The notes beneath the pieces were generated by a model, which was not told where the DNA came from, did not search any database, and saw nothing but the letters and a program-made list of their open reading frames with translations. Below, one piece after another: positions 13,606 to 23,900 of a stretch of 34,566 nt of DNA; positions within the stretch are counted from its first letter, which is position 1; each line of letters opens with the position of its first letter. Position numbers and translations under genes: made by a program. The stretch comes from Cocleimonas sp. (GTDB lineage Bacteria; Pseudomonadota; Gammaproteobacteria; Thiotrichales; Thiotrichaceae), in the NCBI GenBank assembly GCA_023146545.1, contig JAGLBW010000033.1:1-34566 (forward strand). Direction: 5' to 3'.

Positions 13606-14631
13606 ATGTGGGCGATTAAAGAAGCACCACAAACTGCACCTGATTTCATTCAGTATTTAGAAAATATCTATGGTCGTAGCGCGGTTAATAACCACACTTT
13701 AGATGATCTTAATGATGTAGTGAATCTTTGGAAACGTCAGGGTATTCCCTTAAGTATTGATACCGCTAAAATGGAGGCTGATCCACAACGTATTTATCGG
13801 GCTTATTTTGATGATATTTTGCAGGCTTGTGATCTTAACGACATTGCTACCGATTGTATTTTTTTTACGTTAATTGATATTAAAAACCTTAATGCTTATG
13901 CCAGTACACTTCCGAATAAAGATCGTGTGATTGTTTTGGATGAAAATCTGGTGTCGTTTTTTACCTGTTTTTTTATTGCCAGCTTGGTGGCAGTTTACTC
14001 TAAGCCTTCTGCACATCAAAGTGATCAATTAGAAGCCTTTTTATTTGATACCTTAGCTCATTTTGCTAATCCGCAGCACAGTGTGCAGCAGAAAAAAGAC
14101 TATGCATCACGTTTTAAAAAAATTATCCAAGTAGATTATCGGCTCACAGAAATAGGCTGTTATCTTTCAATTGCTTGCACCCTGTTTATTCTTTGCCATG
14201 AGCTTTCACATCACCTACTCGGACATACTGAAAACAGGTGTTTGTCCCCAAACAGCGCTGAAGATCAGCGTATCGCTCAGATGCTAAATACACCTAATCA
14301 TAATGAAGAATTTGCCGCAGATCATTACGGTTATGACTTATTTTTATCGTTGATCGAAAACGTAGAGCAGGTTCAATTTGCTAAACTTTCTCACGCGTTT
14401 AATCGCACGCCACTGCTCTTTTTTGAGGTGATCGAAATCGTTCATAATATTCAGCCTAAAAAGGAATCGGCACTACAACAAAAAGACACTCATCCACCAC
14501 CAATGAAAAGAAAATCTCAGCTTTTGTCCCACTATCAGCATCAATTACACGGGGATGGTGAAGCATTATACGATGATCTTATGCCTTTTATACGTTACTT
14601 AAACGATCACTGTACTAATATAAACTCGTAA
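13606..14631 (+). CDS. M48-like zinc metallopeptidase-domain protein
   Basis: This 341-residue protein carries a gluzincin site. HELSH at 198-202 (within LCHELSHHLLGH) gives two zinc-binding His residues and the catalytic Glu199, and EFAAD at 235-239 gives the third ligand in the ExxAD form seen in M48-type peptidases. The helix before HELSH (LSIACTLFI) is hydrophobic but short, and no signal peptide or clear multi-TM topology is visible, so a cytoplasmic location is likely. The N-terminal 180 residues match no domain that I recognise. The gene is 23 bases after pqiC. Its last 25 bases overlap the end of the convergent gene on the other strand. With two paralogous unknown proteins beside it, a cleavage partnership is possible but is only inference. 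Confidence 0.72.
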   Translation: MWAIKEAPQTAPDFIQYLENIYGRSAVNNHTLDDLNDVVNLWKRQGIPLSIDTAKMEADPQRIYRAYFDDILQACDLNDIATDCIFFTLIDIKNLNAYASTLPNKDRVIVLDENLVSFFTCFFIASLVAVYSKPSAHQSDQLEAFLFDTLAHFANPQHSVQQKKDYASRFKKIIQVDYRLTEIGCYLSIACTLFILCHELSHHLLGHTENRCLSPNSAEDQRIAQMLNTPNHNEEFAADHYGYDLFLSLIENVEQVQFAKLSHAFNRTPLLFFEVIEIVHNIQPKKESALQQKDTHPPPMKRKSQLLSHYQHQLHGDGEALYDDLMPFIRYLNDHCTNINS

Positions 14632-15368
14632 TAATCCACTGCAATGTGTTGTTGTGGATCTTGTGCTAGGCGTAATGCAAACTCATCCAATGCTTGTCTG
14701 GTCAGGGTAAACCCTGTTTTTAATGACTTTGGTGGCATAATAAGCGATGAAGTTCGAATCACAGTACACAGTCGCCACCCTAGACCGTATTGTTCCCTAA
14801 AGGTAAAATTTTTCTGGGCAGGATAACGTAAGGTCGTCTCATCTTTAGGCATAACCGAAATAAAATTTTCCAGATCCAGTGGAGCGAGTTGAAAGATTAA
14901 ATCCTGAGATTGAAGTACCACAAAAAAATGATCCCCCGCTTGACCTGTGAAGCTTAAACACCAATCCTGTGTAATACTAATTTCATCTAAATCCTTTTCC
15001 GAACGGTGCTGAAACCCATCACTATCAATTAAGTAATGATGCTCCCCGCTACTCAACTGAAAATTCATGAGCTTACAATGATAATCGGTATGATCAACCA
15101 AGTTAGCCCAAGAGCTTAAGGTATCCTCCTTTAATAGCGGCAAATAATCCATCAGTGCTAATAACTCCGCGATCTGCAAGGCATAACGCTTGTCCAGTTT
15201 ACCTCCATGCCATGCCTTAGCAGGTGCACCAACCGTTTGATTCTCAGGAATATAAAAATGGCGCATATAATGAATCTCGAAAGCAATTAGCGTCATTATT
15301 CCTTGTTTTTGGGCGTAATGACGTACTTTAAATTTATCAAACACAACCCCTCTATTACGTTTTTTCAT
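14607..15368 (-). CDS. Unknown protein, paralog of the gene at 15809-16681
   Basis: This 253-residue protein is not one I recognise. It is clearly related to the product at 15809-16681 in its C-terminal half. Shared blocks, in order, are DHFFVVL (DHFFIVL in the paralog), QLAPL, TTLRYP (TTLKYP), QYGLG (KYGLG), a WRLC/WRCT segment followed by V/AIR, and near the end a DYYEFIL/DSYEFVL motif. The N-terminus is basic (MKKRNRGVVFDKFK) and the N-terminal halves of the two proteins differ. There is no signal peptide, no TM segment and no enzyme motif. Its 3' end overlaps the convergent peptidase gene by 25 bases, so transcription of the two genes would interfere. The start ATG at 15368 has GGGA about 10 bases upstream. 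Confidence 0.65.
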   Translation of the reverse strand: MKKRNRGVVFDKFKVRHYAQKQGIMTLIAFEIHYMRHFYIPENQTVGAPAKAWHGGKLDKRYALQIAELLALMDYLPLLKEDTLSSWANLVDHTDYHCKLMNFQLSSGEHHYLIDSDGFQHRSEKDLDEISITQDWCLSFTGQAGDHFFVVLQSQDLIFQLAPLDLENFISVMPKDETTLRYPAQKNFTFREQYGLGWRLCTVIRTSSLIMPPKSLKTGFTLTRQALDEFALRLAQDPQQHIAVDYYEFILVQ

Positions 15369-15543
15369 TCTAAAAATCCCATTCCTTTGTGTTGATTTTG
15401 AACAAATTATTAATACAATATTTTCTTATCGGTGTTAACTATGACTTAACGATCAATCTTTTACGTTGATTTCAAGGGATACTCCTCAAGGTCAAGACAA
15501 ACCAACCAAAGCGCTTTGGATCATTTTTTTTAGGAGATCCAGA

Positions 15544-15723
15544 ATGGATAAAAAAACCGTTGCAACAAAAGTGCAGCATAAGACCAACACGCGAAGCTAT
15601 ATTCGCAACAACCCTAAGCTTATCGAAAAAATCAGTAAGAATTTACCCCCAAGCGAAAGCTCACCGTTATTTGCAATTGTTATTAGTTTTAATATCAATA
15701 ACGCCCCTGCTTTATCATCATGA
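15544..15723 (+). CDS. Small 59-residue protein, unknown
   Basis: The ATG at 15544 is preceded by AGGAGA eight bases upstream, a much better start than the in-frame TTG at 15466. The product begins MDKKTVATKVQHKTNTRSYI, is basic in its first 40 residues, and ends in a hydrophobic and small-residue stretch (SPLFAIVISFNINNAPALSS). It lies in the gap between the two paralogous minus-strand genes, on the opposite strand. I know of no family for it. The strong ribosome-binding site supports a real gene; its shortness argues for caution. Confidence 0.5.
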   Translation: MDKKTVATKVQHKTNTRSYIRNNPKLIEKISKNLPPSESSPLFAIVISFNINNAPALSS

Positions 15724-15808: not shown

Positions 15809-16681
15809 TTATTTATTAAATAAAACAAACTCATAGCTATCAATAGCGAAAGCTTTATCTTGTTGCATTAAACGGGCAACAAAATCAGCTAACTCAAACG
15901 ATGATAAAAGAGGATCAACCGCAATCGTTTTTGCTGCTATTGGAATCATAGCGGATCGAATAGCTGTACAGCGCCACCGTCCTAGACCGTATTTTTCTGA
16001 TAAGGGAATACTTGCCTTCAGTGGATATTTCAACGTTGTTCTATCCGCTGAAATGCTTGAAATAAAATCATGGTCAGGGAAAAAATAAGCAGGTGATAAA
16101 GGAGCAAGCTGCATAAACACTTTCTTTTCATTGAATGATTCTAAAACAATAAAAAAATGATCCTCTGGTTTGCCTGATAACTGTAAATAAAAGTGTTCCT
16201 TGCTCTTAATTCGCGGTAAATTTTCCAACAAGGATTGCTGTAATCCCACGGCTTCAATGCATTTCACCCCACGATCACTGGCTAAACAGAAGCGCATAAA
16301 CGCGTGTTGATACGTCTTGTTACCCAATAAATTGCGCCAATATTTCAATCGTTGTTGCCTTAACTCCTCCTCTGAGGCAAACACACCTGAAAAATTACCA
16401 TCCAACCAATGCATTAACTTCGATGCTGATGTAGTGCTTAATAATTTTCCTCTTAAAAAACCATTTCCTGTCACCACATCAATACTATCAATCGGCTCAT
16501 TCGTACCCGAATCTTTATTAAATAAGGGAATCGGTTTAATACGATAACTTCCTGTTTTCTTAGCTTTCTTTTCATCCAATAAATAACAGCATAAAGCACG
16601 TAACGGCTCCTGCTGGTTTACAGCATCCAATGACCTGTCCAATTTTTCTATTCGGTTATATTCATTCTGTTTCATTATCAA
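15809..16681 (-). CDS. Unknown protein, paralog of the gene at 14607-15368
   Basis: This 290-residue product is of unknown function. The C-terminal half (about 165-290) aligns by eye with the neighbouring gene through DHFFIVL, QLAPL, TTLKYP, EKYGLG, RWRCTAIR and a terminal DSYEFVL block. The N-terminal half differs and contains EPIDSIDVVTGNGFLRGKLL and a Trp-containing block LMHWLDGNFSGVFASEEELR. No signal peptide or TM segment is present, so it is probably cytoplasmic. The pair points to duplication followed by divergence of the N-terminal (perhaps specificity) region. The first codons MIMK offer two possible ATG starts; I keep the longer one. Confidence 0.68.
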   Translation of the reverse strand: MIMKQNEYNRIEKLDRSLDAVNQQEPLRALCCYLLDEKKAKKTGSYRIKPIPLFNKDSGTNEPIDSIDVVTGNGFLRGKLLSTTSASKLMHWLDGNFSGVFASEEELRQQRLKYWRNLLGNKTYQHAFMRFCLASDRGVKCIEAVGLQQSLLENLPRIKSKEHFYLQLSGKPEDHFFIVLESFNEKKVFMQLAPLSPAYFFPDHDFISSISADRTTLKYPLKASIPLSEKYGLGRWRCTAIRSAMIPIAAKTIAVDPLLSSFELADFVARLMQQDKAFAIDSYEFVLFNK

Positions 16682-17044
16682 TATTTCTCATCAGCCTAAG
16701 CTCTGTTGACATGTGATGATTAATTCCTCTTTTTTCCTTAAAAGAAGCAAAGAATCGACTACAACGTAAAAATATAACCCAATATCAACAGAACCTAATC
16801 AGTGTATTCACCCATTAATGGATGGGTAGAAGGGTTAATCAATATACTTTATAAATTGCATAGTTTTCATTAATAGCTCACCTCAATAATATTTTTTTCC
16901 CCTCATAAAACAAAGTATTCATCTCACGCTCTCCCTGACTTCTCCTGTTTATAAACATAATAATGCGTCAGGTAGTAACTAAGATGTTCAATAAAAAAAC
17001 AGAGAAAAAATTTGATTTATCCATAAACAAGGGAGATTGCAACA
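16682..17044. other. 363-base divergent intergenic region upstream of the acyl-transferase gene
   Basis: No gene is visible. The region separates the minus-strand paralog from the acyl-transferase gene and must hold divergent promoters. It contains a palindromic candidate operator at 16810-16827 and, just before the next start, AAGGGAGA at 17029-17036 as a strong ribosome-binding site. Confidence 0.5.
16810..16827. promoter_or_regulatory. Candidate palindromic operator
   Basis: ACCCAT and ATGGGT flank a 6-base spacer over 18 bases, with the inner 10 bases CCATTAATGG themselves a perfect palindrome. It lies 218 bases before the acyl-transferase start, in a divergent promoter region. The size resembles regulator half-site pairs such as lux-type boxes, but the sequence does not match the known LuxR consensus. 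Confidence 0.25.
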
Positions 17045-17665
17045 ATGGAAACAAAAATGATCGCACCTTTAGAGGTTCCACCACATATAAAACTCGATGA
17101 ACCCCTACAAATTTTGGTACAGAACGACAAAAACATGAAGGAAGTCTGTCAGTTATGGCAACAAGAATACAAAACTATTTATCCTAAATATAAAATAAAT
17201 CATAATGACCCGTTAAATAAACGGTCTCATATTCTTTATTCAAGAAATAAAGATCAGCACATTGTCAGCACCGCACGATTAACCCTCGATAGTCCACTCG
17301 GTTTACCTGATGATGATGTATACCCTAGAGAAATTAATTTATACCGCGAAAGAGGTCTGAAGCTGATGGAGTTTGGACGATTTATTAGCCAAGGGGGAAA
17401 TTTACAATTGATAAAAAACTACTATAAATCTGTTTATCTCATCGCCCTCGCTGAGAAAGTTGATGTCATTGCAATGACCATAAAAGATAAAGATATTGCT
17501 TTGCATCGAAATTTAATGGGCGCGTATTTATTGTCCAGCAATATGAACACCGATAACGGCAGTCAATACAAAATGGCATGCATGTCATGGGAAGTTAATA
17601 AAACTAAAGCCCGCTTTTTTAATTGGACAAGATTACCACAACACACAATGGAGCCTGCCTTATGA
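17045..17665 (+). CDS. LuxI/FeeM-like GNAT acyl-transferase (putative N-acyl amino acid or autoinducer-type synthase)
   Basis: This 206-residue protein has the autoinducer-synthase style of GNAT fold. Diagnostic positions of LuxI proteins are an Arg in a G/xxRL segment and an E-xx-R-F motif. Here they appear as ARL (R78) and E109-F-G-R112-F113. RLTLDSPLGLPDDDVYP followed by EFGRF is also the pattern of N-acyl amino acid synthases of the FeeM type and of exosortase-associated acyltransferases. Family members transfer an acyl chain from acyl-ACP to an amino-acid-like amine. The LuxI Asp pair is only partly kept (D55 present, N58 at the second position), so an ordinary homoserine-lactone product is not assured. 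The start has AAGGGAGA upstream. The last four bases overlap the methyltransferase gene, so the two are coupled. No LuxR-type gene is adjacent. Confidence 0.68.
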   Translation: METKMIAPLEVPPHIKLDEPLQILVQNDKNMKEVCQLWQQEYKTIYPKYKINHNDPLNKRSHILYSRNKDQHIVSTARLTLDSPLGLPDDDVYPREINLYRERGLKLMEFGRFISQGGNLQLIKNYYKSVYLIALAEKVDVIAMTIKDKDIALHRNLMGAYLLSSNMNTDNGSQYKMACMSWEVNKTKARFFNWTRLPQHTMEPAL

Positions 17666-18366
17666 GTGTCGCTTACAAGAAAGCTGTATGGGATGAATAT
17701 TCAACCGCATTTTTAGCGGTTATGCCATCAAAAATGCTCACATTAAACAAAGCCGTTGCCGCCATCGCCACGGGAAACGTAGGGGATTTTGGTTGTGGTG
17801 CGGCAAAAATTGCACCCTTTATTCTTAATAACCCCAATGTAGAACAATACACTGGTATTGATTCTTCACCTGAAATGGTCAAATTAGCCCGTTGGCATTT
17901 AGAGCAATTCCCTGATAAGCCCTCAAAAATTATTGAAAGCAAATTAGAGTGTCTTGATACTGGTATTTATGATTTTGAAACTTTTGATCGAACAGAAGCC
18001 AAACACAAAAATATCGGCTTTGATTATGGACTCTCAATTAACAGCTATTACGCATGGGAATCCCCCAAAACGATACTGGATTGTATTTACAATGCCCTAA
18101 AACCCCAAGCCTCCTTTATCTTAGTAACCCCCAACCACCAATTGGATATGGTGGCATTACTTGATGAAGCCGAAAGAGAACTTGTTGCCAATCCTTATTT
18201 TGAAAGCTTTAAAGCACAGAATATTGACATTGAAAACAATAAAAAAGCAGTACGGATTGATATGGATGAACTCATAGATCAAGCCCGTAATACAGGCTTT
18301 AAAGTCATCGAAGCACACCAACGTTTTTATGATCAAGGTTTAAACTACCTGCATTTAAAAGCTTAA
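17662..18366 (+). CDS. SAM-dependent methyltransferase (class I)
   Basis: The ATG at 17662 overlaps the preceding stop (ATGA) and gives 234 residues. An in-frame ATG upstream (17623) lies within the acyl-transferase gene. Motif I is VGDFGCGAAKI (about 41-51) and the acidic loop after strand 2 is YTGIDSSPEM (about 67-76), with the Asp that binds the ribose of S-adenosylmethionine. SFILVTPNHQ (about 153-162) is the motif near strand 5. The rest is helical, without a recognisable substrate domain. Tight coupling to the acyl-transferase suggests it methylates the acylated product (for example a carboxylate or hydroxyl), but the target atom cannot be read from the sequence. A 13-bp hairpin 34 bases downstream probably marks the end of the operon. 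Confidence 0.82.
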   Translation: MSVAYKKAVWDEYSTAFLAVMPSKMLTLNKAVAAIATGNVGDFGCGAAKIAPFILNNPNVEQYTGIDSSPEMVKLARWHLEQFPDKPSKIIESKLECLDTGIYDFETFDRTEAKHKNIGFDYGLSINSYYAWESPKTILDCIYNALKPQASFILVTPNHQLDMVALLDEAERELVANPYFESFKAQNIDIENNKKAVRIDMDELIDQARNTGFKVIEAHQRFYDQGLNYLHLKA

Positions 18367-20128: not shown

Positions 20129-20580
20129 TCATTGTCATAATGAAAAAGGGGCGGTCTAATGGTGAAGCTATGGGTGTAAATTGTTTGGTCTCTCTGTTGA
20201 TTTATGATGCTTATCAAGGAACCCTGTTGGGAAGATTGATATAAGCAATAGACAGTGTAATTTTGTAGCATTTACATCTTTAAATAGATGAGAAGGGATC
20301 AGTTAATTTAATGCCTCTATAAGGTATATTTGTCTCATTTTTCTTAGTTTTGTCAAGCAACTAGCATTATGCGTTTAGTATGGTACAAATTCAATTTTTA
20401 TAAGTGCTGATAAAAGCTAAAGATAGTTGAACTATTGCTATAAAAATGATAAAAACGCACTGGAAAAACTGATTATGGTAATCAATATTTTTAGCTGTTT
20501 TTTAAAACCATGTTATTTAACGCTGTAAGTTGCTAATATTTAATGTATTACGCTTTGTTTTCGAAGGCAGTGATCACTTT

Positions 20581-20661: not shown

Positions 20662-21507
20662 ATGTTTATTATTACAAACCCATTCGCACAGCTGAATGCG
20701 GATTCCCCTGAGCTATTCACCCCAGGATTGATGCAAACTTATATTCTTTTGATGATTTTTGCGGTCATCGCAGGAACATTATTTGATGTATGGCATAAGA
20801 AAAGTGCTAAATACTTTGCTGAGAACAAGGAAAAAGGCAAGAAAAACGCAAAACGTGAAGTAAGTAGTGGCGAAAGAACAGGAATGATGATTAAAACAGT
20901 CACTAGCGAAGTGCTGACTTCATCGGAGTTTTCTAACCAAAAGCGTCGTATTTCTCATCTATTAACGATGTATGGCTTTATTGTCTTTGTTGCAACAACG
21001 GCTGTGATGATTTTTGCTTATCCAACAGGGACTGCTACACCAGTTATTTTGCCATTGTTATGGCATTTGGGTGCTTTAAGTCTTTGTGTGGGTGGTTATT
21101 GGTTCTGGTTTTCTATTCGCGTAGATGTTGCTGCTGAAGGTAAGCCTTGGTATCAACTATCGCCTCGTGCCGATATGTTTATTCTTTCTCTACTTGCAAC
21201 GTGTACTTTTGCTCTACTTTGGTCTTTGACGAGTGCATTTTTAATGTTTGCTTTGTTTATTGCCTCTGCTACGTTTTTATTTACGACGGTGATTTGGTCT
21301 AAGTTTGCACATATGTTCTTCAAGCCAGCTGCTGCTTTTGAAAAGCGAGTGATAAAGGCTGATGGTAGCAATGAAGGTCTTCCTGGCGATTTCGATTTAA
21401 GTAGTAAAGAAGTTCAGGAGAGATTCCCTGATATTCCTACTTATATGGGCGAGAATCCTCCTAACATGGGTGCAGGTATTAGACGTGAGTCAGCTCGTCA
21501 TTATTAA
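20662..21507 (+). CDS. aprM: AprM, membrane anchor of APS reductase
   Basis: This 281-residue protein has about five TM segments (about 25-42, 103-122, 129-151, 170-190 and 193-215). Between TM1 and TM2 lies a long basic cytoplasmic loop (KKSAKYFAENKEKGKKNAKR). The C-terminal tail is cytoplasmic and acidic/Pro-rich (PDIPTYMGENPPNMGAG). Position directly before aprB and aprA, with this topology, identifies AprM, which is found in sulfur oxidisers lacking QmoABC and is proposed to pass electrons from AprBA to the quinone pool. No Qmo-type gene is in the window. The start at 20662 has AGGAG eight bases upstream. The spacer to aprB is 33 bases with a fresh AAGAGGA, so the three genes form one operon closed by the terminator at 23930. 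Confidence 0.88.
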   Translation: MFIITNPFAQLNADSPELFTPGLMQTYILLMIFAVIAGTLFDVWHKKSAKYFAENKEKGKKNAKREVSSGERTGMMIKTVTSEVLTSSEFSNQKRRISHLLTMYGFIVFVATTAVMIFAYPTGTATPVILPLLWHLGALSLCVGGYWFWFSIRVDVAAEGKPWYQLSPRADMFILSLLATCTFALLWSLTSAFLMFALFIASATFLFTTVIWSKFAHMFFKPAAAFEKRVIKADGSNEGLPGDFDLSSKEVQERFPDIPTYMGENPPNMGAGIRRESARHY

Positions 21508-21540
21508 GAACTAATTAAGAATTTTTAAGAGGATTTATTT

Positions 21541-22023
21541 ATGCCTACATTTGTGAAAATGACACGTTGTGATGGTTGTGGCGAATGCGTTGACATCTGT
21601 CCATCGGACATTATGCATATCGATAAAACGATTCGTCGTGCGTATAACATCGAACCTAATATGTGTTGGGAATGCTACTCGTGTGTAAAAGCTTGTCCAC
21701 ATAATGCGATTGATGTTCGTGGTTATGCAGACTTTACACCATTGGGAAGTTCAGTTCGCGTACACCGTGATGAAGAAAAAGGGATTATTGCTTGGCGGAT
21801 TATTTTCCGTAATGGCAAGAAAGACATGGAGCTAATCGCACCGATTACAACGAAGCCATGGGGAACAGGAATTCCTGATCTTAACTCAGCTTCAGAACCA
21901 AGTAGTGAAATGCGTGACAGTCACCTGCTTTACAATGAGCCGAAGTATATACGCATGGATGAAGGGGGCTTACATACCCTTGAATCGAATAAATTAGTCA
22001 TGAAAGAAGGAGTTTACTACTAA
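21541..22023 (+). CDS. aprB: AprB, iron-sulfur beta subunit of dissimilatory APS reductase
   Basis: This 160-residue ferredoxin-like subunit passes electrons between the AprA flavin and the membrane anchor. Two 4Fe-4S binding sets are complete: C10-x2-C13-x2-C16-x3-C20-P and C42-x2-C45-x2-C48-x3-C52-P. Both come early, as in known AprB, followed by the C-terminal segment that wraps around AprA (PITTKPWGTGIPDLNSASEP). The length matches the family. The stop and the aprA start share one base (TAATG). Sulfur oxidisers run the AprBA reaction as sulfite plus AMP to APS; that direction here is inferred from the AprM context. Confidence 0.96.
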   Translation: MPTFVKMTRCDGCGECVDICPSDIMHIDKTIRRAYNIEPNMCWECYSCVKACPHNAIDVRGYADFTPLGSSVRVHRDEEKGIIAWRIIFRNGKKDMELIAPITTKPWGTGIPDLNSASEPSSEMRDSHLLYNEPKYIRMDEGGLHTLESNKLVMKEGVYY

Positions 22024-23900
22024 TGGCTTATAAGACTATTGTTGAAGACAATATTGATCTGCTTGTTGCAGGTGCTGGCTTAGGTGGTACTGGTGCTGCT
22101 TTTGAAGCGAGATTTTGGGGAAAAGATAAGAAAATTGTTATTGCTGAAAAAGCAAACATTGACCGATCTGGTGCAGTAGCGCAGGGACTTTACGCGATTA
22201 ACTGTTATATGGGTACGCGTTTCGGTGAGAATAATCCTGAAGATCATGTACGTTATGCGCGTATGGATTTAATGGGTATGGTTCGGGAAGATTTGTTATT
22301 TGATATGGCACGTCACGTTGATTCAACGGTTCACCAGTTTGAAGACTGGGGCATGCCGATTATGAAGAATCAAGAAACGGGTGCTTATCTTCGTGAAGGT
22401 CGTTGGCAGATTATGATTCATGGTGAATCTTATAAGCCAATGGTTGCAGAAGCGGCTAAGAAGTCTGCTGATAAGGTGTTTAATCGTATCTGTGTTACTC
22501 ATTTGTTGATGGATGAGTCTCAAGAAAACCGTGTGGCAGGTGCTGTTGGGTTTAACGTGCGGACAGGTAACTATCACGTCTTTAAATCAAAGACAGTTGT
22601 TGTTGGTGCGGGTGGTGCTTCAAATATCTATAAGCCTCGTTCAGTGGGTGAAGGCGCAGGTCGTGTTTGGTATGCACCGTGGTCATCAGGTTCTGCTTAT
22701 GGTCTTATGATCGAAGCGGGCGCAAAAATGACGCAAATGGAGAACAAAATTGTTCTTGCTCGTTTTAAAGATGGTTATGGCCCTGTTGGCGCTTATTTCT
22801 TACACCTTAAAACCTACACACAAAACTGTGATGGTGAAGAGTATGAATCAAAGTGGTTTCCAGAGCTTACAAAAATGGTGGGCAAGGAATATCTGGATAC
22901 AGAAAACCAGCATTTCTCTCATAAGCCAATTCCTACCTGTTTACGTAACCATGCGTTCATCAATGAGGTGAATTCAGGTAAAGGTCCTATTCACATGGTG
23001 ACGATGGAAGCTTTCCAAGATCCGCATCTTGAAGAAATTGGTTGGCATAACTTCTTGGGCATGACGGTTGGTCAAGCCGTGCTTTGGGCATCAAATGATG
23101 TTGATCCTAAACACGAAAACCCAGAGTTAACAACATCTGAGCCTTATGTCATGGGTTCTCACGCGACAGGTTGTGGCGCATGGTGTTCTGGTCCTGAAGA
23201 TGTTTCTCCTGATGAGTATTTCTGGGGTTATAACCGAATGACAACAGTACATGGTCTCTTTGGTTGTGGTGATGCTGTTGGTGGAACACCTCACGCGTTC
23301 TCATCAGGTTCCTTTACGGAAGGTCGTTTAGCGGCTAAAGCTGCTATTCAATATATCAATGATGGCAAAGCAGAAGGTATTACAGTAACCAGTGCTCAGA
23401 TTGATAAGCGTCGTGAAGAAATTTATAAGCCGATGGAAACATACAAGGTTTATCGCAATCACATCACAGCGGGTTCGGTTAATCCTTATTACATCAACCC
23501 AAGACAAGGTCTGGATCGTCTACAGAAGATGATGGATGAGTATTGTGGTGGTGTTACGGTAAGTTATATGACCAATGAGAAATTATTGAATATTGGTCTT
23601 AAAAAACTTGGTGTGCTTGCTGATGATTGGGATGGCGGTATCGCGGCTGAAGATATTCATGAATTACTACGTGCATGGGAATTAAAGCACCGCATATTGA
23701 CTTCTGAATCAGTGATGCAACATACCTTATTCCGCAAAGAAACACGTTGGCCTGGTTATTATTATCGCGGTGATCACATGAAGCTTGATGATAATGAATG
23801 GCATGTATTAACAGTATCTCGTCGTGATCCTGATACAGGTAAGTACACGATGGAAAAAGCACCACTTTATCACTTGATTGGTGAAGAAGATGAGAAGTAA
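22023..23900 (+). CDS. aprA: AprA, flavoprotein alpha subunit of dissimilatory APS reductase
   Basis: This 625-residue FAD enzyme of the fumarate reductase/succinate dehydrogenase flavoprotein family interconverts APS and sulfite plus AMP. The dinucleotide-binding motif GAGLGG is at 17-22, and the AprA-specific stretches WYAPWSSGSAYGLM and MGSHATGCGAWCSGPEDVSP are clear. The C-terminal part (RWPGYYYRGDHMKLDD) is typical of the family. The length is normal and I see no frameshift. Partners are AprB and AprM in the same operon. The gene for ATP sulfurylase, which usually acts next in the sulfur-oxidation path, is not in this window. Confidence 0.97.
   Translation: MAYKTIVEDNIDLLVAGAGLGGTGAAFEARFWGKDKKIVIAEKANIDRSGAVAQGLYAINCYMGTRFGENNPEDHVRYARMDLMGMVREDLLFDMARHVDSTVHQFEDWGMPIMKNQETGAYLREGRWQIMIHGESYKPMVAEAAKKSADKVFNRICVTHLLMDESQENRVAGAVGFNVRTGNYHVFKSKTVVVGAGGASNIYKPRSVGEGAGRVWYAPWSSGSAYGLMIEAGAKMTQMENKIVLARFKDGYGPVGAYFLHLKTYTQNCDGEEYESKWFPELTKMVGKEYLDTENQHFSHKPIPTCLRNHAFINEVNSGKGPIHMVTMEAFQDPHLEEIGWHNFLGMTVGQAVLWASNDVDPKHENPELTTSEPYVMGSHATGCGAWCSGPEDVSPDEYFWGYNRMTTVHGLFGCGDAVGGTPHAFSSGSFTEGRLAAKAAIQYINDGKAEGITVTSAQIDKRREEIYKPMETYKVYRNHITAGSVNPYYINPRQGLDRLQKMMDEYCGGVTVSYMTNEKLLNIGLKKLGVLADDWDGGIAAEDIHELLRAWELKHRILTSESVMQHTLFRKETRWPGYYYRGDHMKLDDNEWHVLTVSRRDPDTGKYTMEKAPLYHLIGEEDEK

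Follow-up and report, generated by a model that had tools for sequence, protein, structure and literature searches.

A FeeM-like acyltransferase and a methyltransferase encoded by overlapping genes of Cocleimonas as the probable synthesis half of a LuxR-linked signalling module

The subject of this analysis is a pair of overlapping open reading frames (ORFs), ORF1 and ORF2, in a 34,566-nucleotide stretch of DNA from Cocleimonas sp. (GenBank assembly GCA_023146545.1, contig JAGLBW010000033.1), hereafter referred to as the window. ORF1 encodes a FeeM-like N-acyltransferase, a candidate signal synthase, and ORF2 a class I S-adenosylmethionine (SAM)-dependent methyltransferase. We propose, with a probability of roughly two in three, that the pair is the synthesis half of a quorum-sensing-type signalling module operating with a LuxR-type receptor. 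The observations on which this proposal is based are the protein families and folds, the linkage of the genes and their fusions, the co-variation of the three proteins, the residues of the receptor pocket, and a palindrome and an RNA helix in the leader.

In the proposed mechanism, the FeeM-like enzyme would link an amino acid, through its amino group, to a fatty acyl chain, as its family and fold lead us to infer, and the ORF2 product would methylate the resulting N-acyl amino acid, most likely as the carboxyl methyl ester. Such a product would be neutral and membrane-permeant, and would resemble an acyl-homoserine lactone (AHL). In neighbouring cells, the LuxR-type receptor would then bind this ligand and control the operon, presumably by contacting the palindrome in an autoregulatory loop; the synthase leader of relatives combines a probable dyad operator with an RNA helix hiding the ribosome site. 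That the signal is the methyl ester itself we hold at somewhat less than even odds.

Specifically, the tetranucleotide ATGA at positions 17662-17665 is common to the stop of ORF1 and the start of ORF2, and a ribosome-binding site is present before each gene. Inspection of the two genes bore out what a preliminary description of the window had claimed for them, namely the four-base overlap with a SAM methyltransferase gene, the presence of Arg78 and of the Glu109-x-x-Arg112-Phe113 motif, and the loss of one aspartate from the LuxI-type Asp-x-x-Asp pair, which reads Asp55-x-x-Asn58 in ORF1. Across an alignment of 25 acyltransferase family sequences, Glu109 and Pro88 are invariant and Asp55 nearly so, Arg78 is not strictly conserved, Arg112 is replaced by Lys in six relatives, and the second aspartate of the pair is retained by most of the family (20/25).

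ORF1 scores 52 bits against the Pfam FeeM family (PF21926; cut-off 27), whereas the LuxI profile (Autoind_synth, PF00765) gave no match to it up to E=10. A profile built from ORF1 relatives found FeeM (2g0b) as its top match in the PDB (E 4e-6). The AlphaFold model of ORF1 (predicted local distance difference test, pLDDT, 92) has FeeM 2g0b as its best PDB match (E 3e-9), with LasI only at E 5e-6, and its six top matches are all FeeM chains (template modelling, TM, scores of 0.62-0.78). ORF1 is the sole FeeM match found in its genome (2.4 Mb, 90% complete), in which no Acetyltransf_5 protein was found. Single-sequence searches with ORF1 of genome and viral contigs returned no matches, because ORF1 is too divergent, and a plasmid search returned weak matches only, in Pseudoalteromonas. 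ORF1 is thus FeeM-like by curated cut-off and by fold, and its likeness to LuxI, as judged from the predicted structure, lies at the level of fold (superfamily) only.

These data bear on a different reading, in which ORF1 encodes a divergent AHL synthase and the methyltransferase has some other substrate. The superfamily fold is indeed common to LasI, TofI and BjaI, Arg78, Glu109 and Arg112 sit at the places of LuxI Arg69, Glu99 and Arg102, and a LuxR-type partner is available. However, besides the missing LuxI profile match, FeeM is far closer in both sequence profile and fold, and Arg24 and Trp34, conserved positions on the SAM-binding side of LuxI, are not kept: the former is Trp in ORF1, and no conserved Trp occupies the place of the latter in the 25 sequences. 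In addition, the partner receptors lack Trp57 and the methyltransferase is fused to the acyltransferase in some species. We therefore regard an AHL synthase as very improbable.

The ORF2 product passes the Pfam profiles Methyltransf_23 (39.4 bits, cut-off 27), Methyltransf_12, _31, _11 and _25, and its model shows a class I fold (pLDDT 91). The motif I sequence GDFGCG and Asp67 after strand 2 are kept in nearly all of 25 relatives. The fold neighbours of ORF2 span C-, N- and O-methyltransferases, which leaves room for a variant of the signalling module in which methylation falls not on the carboxyl but on the amide nitrogen, or on oxygen or carbon of the acyl chain or side chain; we think this variant rather unlikely.

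The linkage of the two genes was surveyed in two ways. Among the FeeM genes fetched from 144 relatives, those resembling ORF1 are almost all adjoined by the methyltransferase gene. Independently, when 85,000 named genomes were scanned with no profile other than that of the methyltransferase, 20 true homologues emerged, in Thiothrix, Leucothrix and other Thiotrichaceae, in Thiorhodococcus and Thiobaca (Chromatiaceae being among the hosts), in Nitrosomonas and another betaproteobacterium, in Sessilibacter, and in metagenome-assembled genomes (MAGs) of Alteromonadaceae and Pseudomonadales. In 19 of them the acyltransferase is either immediately upstream or part of an in-frame fusion; the remaining homologue begins at a contig end. 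Single fused proteins of 427-453 residues occur in four loci of relatives (L042, L043, L044 and L048; L-numbers denote such loci), which fall in about three distinct parts of the tree. The neighbourhood survey called for by the preliminary description thus returned very strong linkage, and the phylogeny that it had also suggested placed the linked acyltransferases in one clade of their own (support 99/99), apart from other FeeM proteins of the class. As for its concern that ORF1 might belong to a family with an unrelated product, ORF1 does fall in FeeM; the N-acyl amino acid product of that family agrees with what had been proposed, so this membership does not count against it. In conclusion, the coupling of acyltransferase and methyltransferase is far beyond chance, and the pairing is real and old.

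A third gene recurs at these loci. It encodes a LuxR-type regulator whose autoinducer-binding domain (Autoind_bind) scores 37-60 bits (cut-off 23) and whose C-terminal GerE helix-turn-helix scores 12-21 bits, below the cut-off of 23.5, with the profile aligning into the C-terminal domain of TraR and RhlR. Such a regulator adjoins the pair in 16/20 named loci. In the window's genome, the only Autoind_bind protein found sits on another contig (C147) and shares 54% identity with the L032 receptor, of which it is the orthologue; L032 also holds the closest relatives of ORF1 (52%) and ORF2 (61%). The distance matrices of acyltransferase, methyltransferase and receptor correlate (r 0.78-0.81, permutation p 2e-4) over 18 loci, a set that includes several copies from one genome, Thiothrix eikelboomii.

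In TraR, Asp70 reads the amide of the ligand and Trp57 the lactone carbonyl. Tyr61, Asp70 and Trp85 are kept in 18/18 receptors, and the place of Trp57 is taken by Phe or Tyr in all of them, which argues against AHL ligands. The resulting motif is [FY]-Y-D-[FYP]-W-[GA]; in canonical AHL sensors it is WYDPWG, from which known non-AHL sensors deviate at the same places (PMC4414361, PMC10134790).

The preliminary description had left open whether the pair makes a new methylated N-acyl signal or a surface lipid. If the latter, the pair would produce a methylated N-acyl amino acid as a membrane or surface lipid or biosurfactant, and the LuxR-type regulator would only time its production in response to a different signal. 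The N-acyl amino acids for which FeeM-family enzymes first became known have surfactant or antibiotic activity (PMC4897644, PMC8762209), and receptor genes without the pair are common. Nevertheless, genes for export, exosortase or surface functions do not recur next to the pair, the receptor pocket departs from AHL sensors exactly at the site reading the head group, and acyltransferase, methyltransferase and receptor co-vary. In addition, no LuxI was found in the window's genome, in a search whose controls gave no match either. The linkage of the receptor therefore favours the signal, which is the better supported half of the original claim, and we judge the surface lipid unlikely.

The leaders of the acyltransferase genes provide a further line of evidence. 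The palindrome CCAAGCGCTTGG or a close variant precedes the acyltransferase start in most Thiothrix-type loci and in both betaproteobacterial loci. Its exact 12-mer was found 11 times in the 52 Mb of 14 genomes, against an expectation of about 3; eight of these sites lie in acyltransferase leaders and three inside unrelated coding genes. The bases following the palindrome (GGATC, GGAATC, GGACTT or GGGCTT) pair with those following the Shine-Dalgarno sequence (GATCC, GATTCC, AAGTCC or GAGTCC). Five pairs form in 12/12 leaders; pair 4 occurs in three Watson-Crick types and pair 5 in two, as counted on a hand alignment leaning towards structure, the MAFFT alignment of the leaders having misplaced the helix. 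The same pairing arose in 0.2% of 20,000 shuffles in which the 3' strands were redistributed among the leaders. The leaders thus carry a dyad palindrome and, overlapping it, a covarying helix that masks the ribosome site. Folded by itself as an RNA hairpin, the palindrome is weak (-2 to -5 kcal/mol), and for this reason we read it as a DNA dyad, the anti-Shine-Dalgarno helix being the RNA part.

The window holds one copy of this leader, with the same layout as the acyltransferase leaders of relatives (Table 1). It stands before an ORF of 59 residues, in which a Pfam scan found no family over cut-off, and we therefore consider that the window's genome has been rearranged, with receptor and leader both displaced. 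The notion that this ORF is the remnant of a duplicated acyltransferase was dropped, local alignment being no better than with shuffled sequences, as was a palindrome directly upstream of ORF1, CACCCATTAATGGATG, which did no better than shuffles. Separately, a repeat resembling a miniature inverted-repeat transposable element (MITE), CTCTGTTGNNATNTGATGATTA, was observed in eight copies with <=2 mismatches, the reversed control giving none. It is present next to the pair as well as next to the displaced LuxR gene, and may have contributed to the rearrangement.

Several observations weigh against the signalling module. In the window, the leader element precedes the 59-residue ORF, 1.5 kb before ORF1, rather than ORF1 directly, and the receptor is not beside the pair: a LuxR gene or its remains were sought in the window and none was found. 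At four of the 20 named loci, from Chromatiaceae and Betaproteobacteria, the flank that was fetched contains no such receptor. The receptor subfamily is also wider than the module, since 16 of 28 receptor matches (14-15 genes) in relatives have no adjoining pair. Two loci, L045 and L046, carry the acyltransferase but no methyltransferase; as both nest inside the clade, the methyltransferase was lost there. ORF2 matches none of the characterised substrate classes, and its closest structural neighbours are CmoA-like and mixed. The centre of the palindrome is only about 35-50 bases upstream of the start codon, closer than a classical lux box would be, and it may therefore mediate repression. Finally, substrates, product and signalling are all inferred.

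Table 1. Coordinates of the features described (window positions unless a locus, L, is given; G000 is the window's genome)
Feature	Position	Strand	Remarks
ORF1, FeeM-like N-acyltransferase, candidate signal synthase	17045..17665	+	206 aa; PF21926 match, fold
ORF2, class I SAM-dependent methyltransferase	17662..18366	+	234 aa; from ATG at 17662
Signal-operon leader copy	15503..15546	+	best leader-matrix match in window; sole such element found in genome
Leader palindrome CCAAAGCGCTTTGG	15506-15519	+	
Anti-Shine-Dalgarno helix, GGATC / GATCC	15518-15522 / 15536-15540		around AGGAG (15532-15536); ATG at 15544
59-aa ORF behind leader element	15544..15723	+	AGGAG before start
Divergent neighbour of acyltransferase gene	15809..16681	-	no Pfam family
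Relative of the divergent neighbour	14607..15368	-	no Pfam family
MITE-like repeat CTCTGTTGNNATNTGATGATTA	16701-16722; 20192-20213; G000:C147:3507-3528		
QmoC-like, AprB and AprA genes	20662-23900		
Large NACHT genes	L067:932-4282; L069:210-4013; L070:3-3998; L071:3-1505; L074:878-4177		divergently adjoining pair
nSTAND3 ATPase gene	L080:2020-4251		divergently adjoining pair
NACHT gene	L032:9490-10902		one gene from pair
NACHT gene	L048:12610-14508		1.4 kb from pair
Small proteins with NBR1-type Ig-like domain (PF16158)	L034:5805-6452; L045:5641-6033; L046:10428-10811; L033:6913-7263; L136:2190-2810		
Three tandem FeeM-family genes	L049:907-3001 (G048:C111)		

With regard to the neighbouring genes, NACHT/STAND (NLR-like) genes stand by the pair in eight loci, mostly in divergent orientation, in genomes that hold only 1-9 NACHT genes each; in a Nitrosomonas MAG, the single NACHT gene is the one beside the pair. 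The divergent neighbour of ORF1 in the window is related to these loci, in that its N-terminal ~85 residues recur at the C-terminus of the NACHT-HEAT protein beside the pair in L067 (phmmer E 3e-13), and in genes beside the pair in L048 (phmmer E 1e-8) and L034 (1e-4). Its C-terminal half is common to the gene at 14607-15368. For its part, that gene shares its N-terminal ~80 residues with genes close to the LuxR gene of L035 and L038, and it is similar to genes found close to the LuxR gene of L036 and L083. Published surveys of conflict systems make no mention of acyltransferase or autoinducer partners, and the adjacency of NACHT/STAND genes to the pair is described in no published survey that we found. 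These neighbours suggest a possible link of signalling to cell-suicide immunity. A fuller proposal, which we advance tentatively and consider doubtful as a whole, is that pair and receptor constitute a new class of signalling, in which a methylated N-acyl amino acid is sensed by LuxR-type proteins that have Phe/Tyr57, and which in several lineages controls, or is read by, NACHT/STAND proteins, tying population sensing to cell suicide as an immune response in filamentous and biofilm bacteria.

Other features of these genomes were also recorded. Small proteins with an immunoglobulin (Ig)-like domain of the NBR1 type (PF16158) recur beside synthase or receptor genes, one of them fused to a Cro/C1 helix-turn-helix, and another Thiotrichaceae genome carries three tandem FeeM-family genes belonging to a different FeeM clade. 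Downstream in the window lie genes for the adenosine 5'-phosphosulfate (APS) reductase of a sulfur oxidiser. Given aprA, aprB and the QmoC-like gene, and relatives that are Thiotrichaceae, the attribution of the window to a sulfur oxidiser in the preliminary description was fair.

If the module is what we propose, quorum sensing would gain a further signal class, and it would be explained how filamentous bacteria of the Thiothrix type, equipped with LuxR receptors but, in the case of the window, with no LuxI that could be detected, might talk to one another. Candidate genes would also be available for the first time for a compound class that is known but orphan. Carriers of the module are in culture (Thiothrix eikelboomii, Thiothrix fructosivorans, Thiobaca trueperi, Thiorhodococcus drewsii and Sessilibacter corallicola), so that the proposal is directly testable, as is the tie of signalling to immunity suggested by the NACHT/STAND neighbours.

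LuxR-type signalling with a non-LuxI synthase is already known, while a methylated N-acyl amino acid signal appears not to have been described before; no earlier report of the acyltransferase-methyltransferase-receptor trio was found in the open-access literature, subscription journals and preprints being outside the search. By comparison with FeeM itself, a long-chain N-acyl amino acid synthase of a family that draws on acyl-ACP (PDB 2g0b, PF21926), ORF1 belongs to the family by its curated cut-off and is closest to it in fold, but window-type acyltransferases form their own clade, are tied to a methyltransferase and to LuxR-type receptors, and keep Arg at LuxI-like positions where the aligned FeeM has none. 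The arrangement of acyl synthase, LuxR-type receptor and dyad palindrome at the synthase gene recalls LuxI/LuxR systems; here, however, the synthase is not a LuxI, a methyltransferase is added, and the receptor motif departs from WYDPWG. A LuxR-type receptor with an altered pocket motif by a non-LuxI synthase is also found in PpyS/PluR and DarABC/PauR, which use non-AHL endogenous signals (PMC10134790, PMC4414361), but their synthases are different, their motifs are TYDQCS and TYDQYI, and their synthase gene is not receptor-controlled. The predicted product belongs to the class of the known N-acyl amino acid methyl esters (NAMEs), which have no known biosynthetic genes or reported LuxR link. 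Finally, in Ralstonia the methyltransferase PhcB makes a 3-hydroxy fatty acid methyl ester signal (PMC8578825). That system involves neither an acyl-amino acid nor FeeM, and its signal is sensed by a histidine kinase; compared by role rather than by sequence, it likewise has a SAM-methyltransferase finishing a lipid signal.
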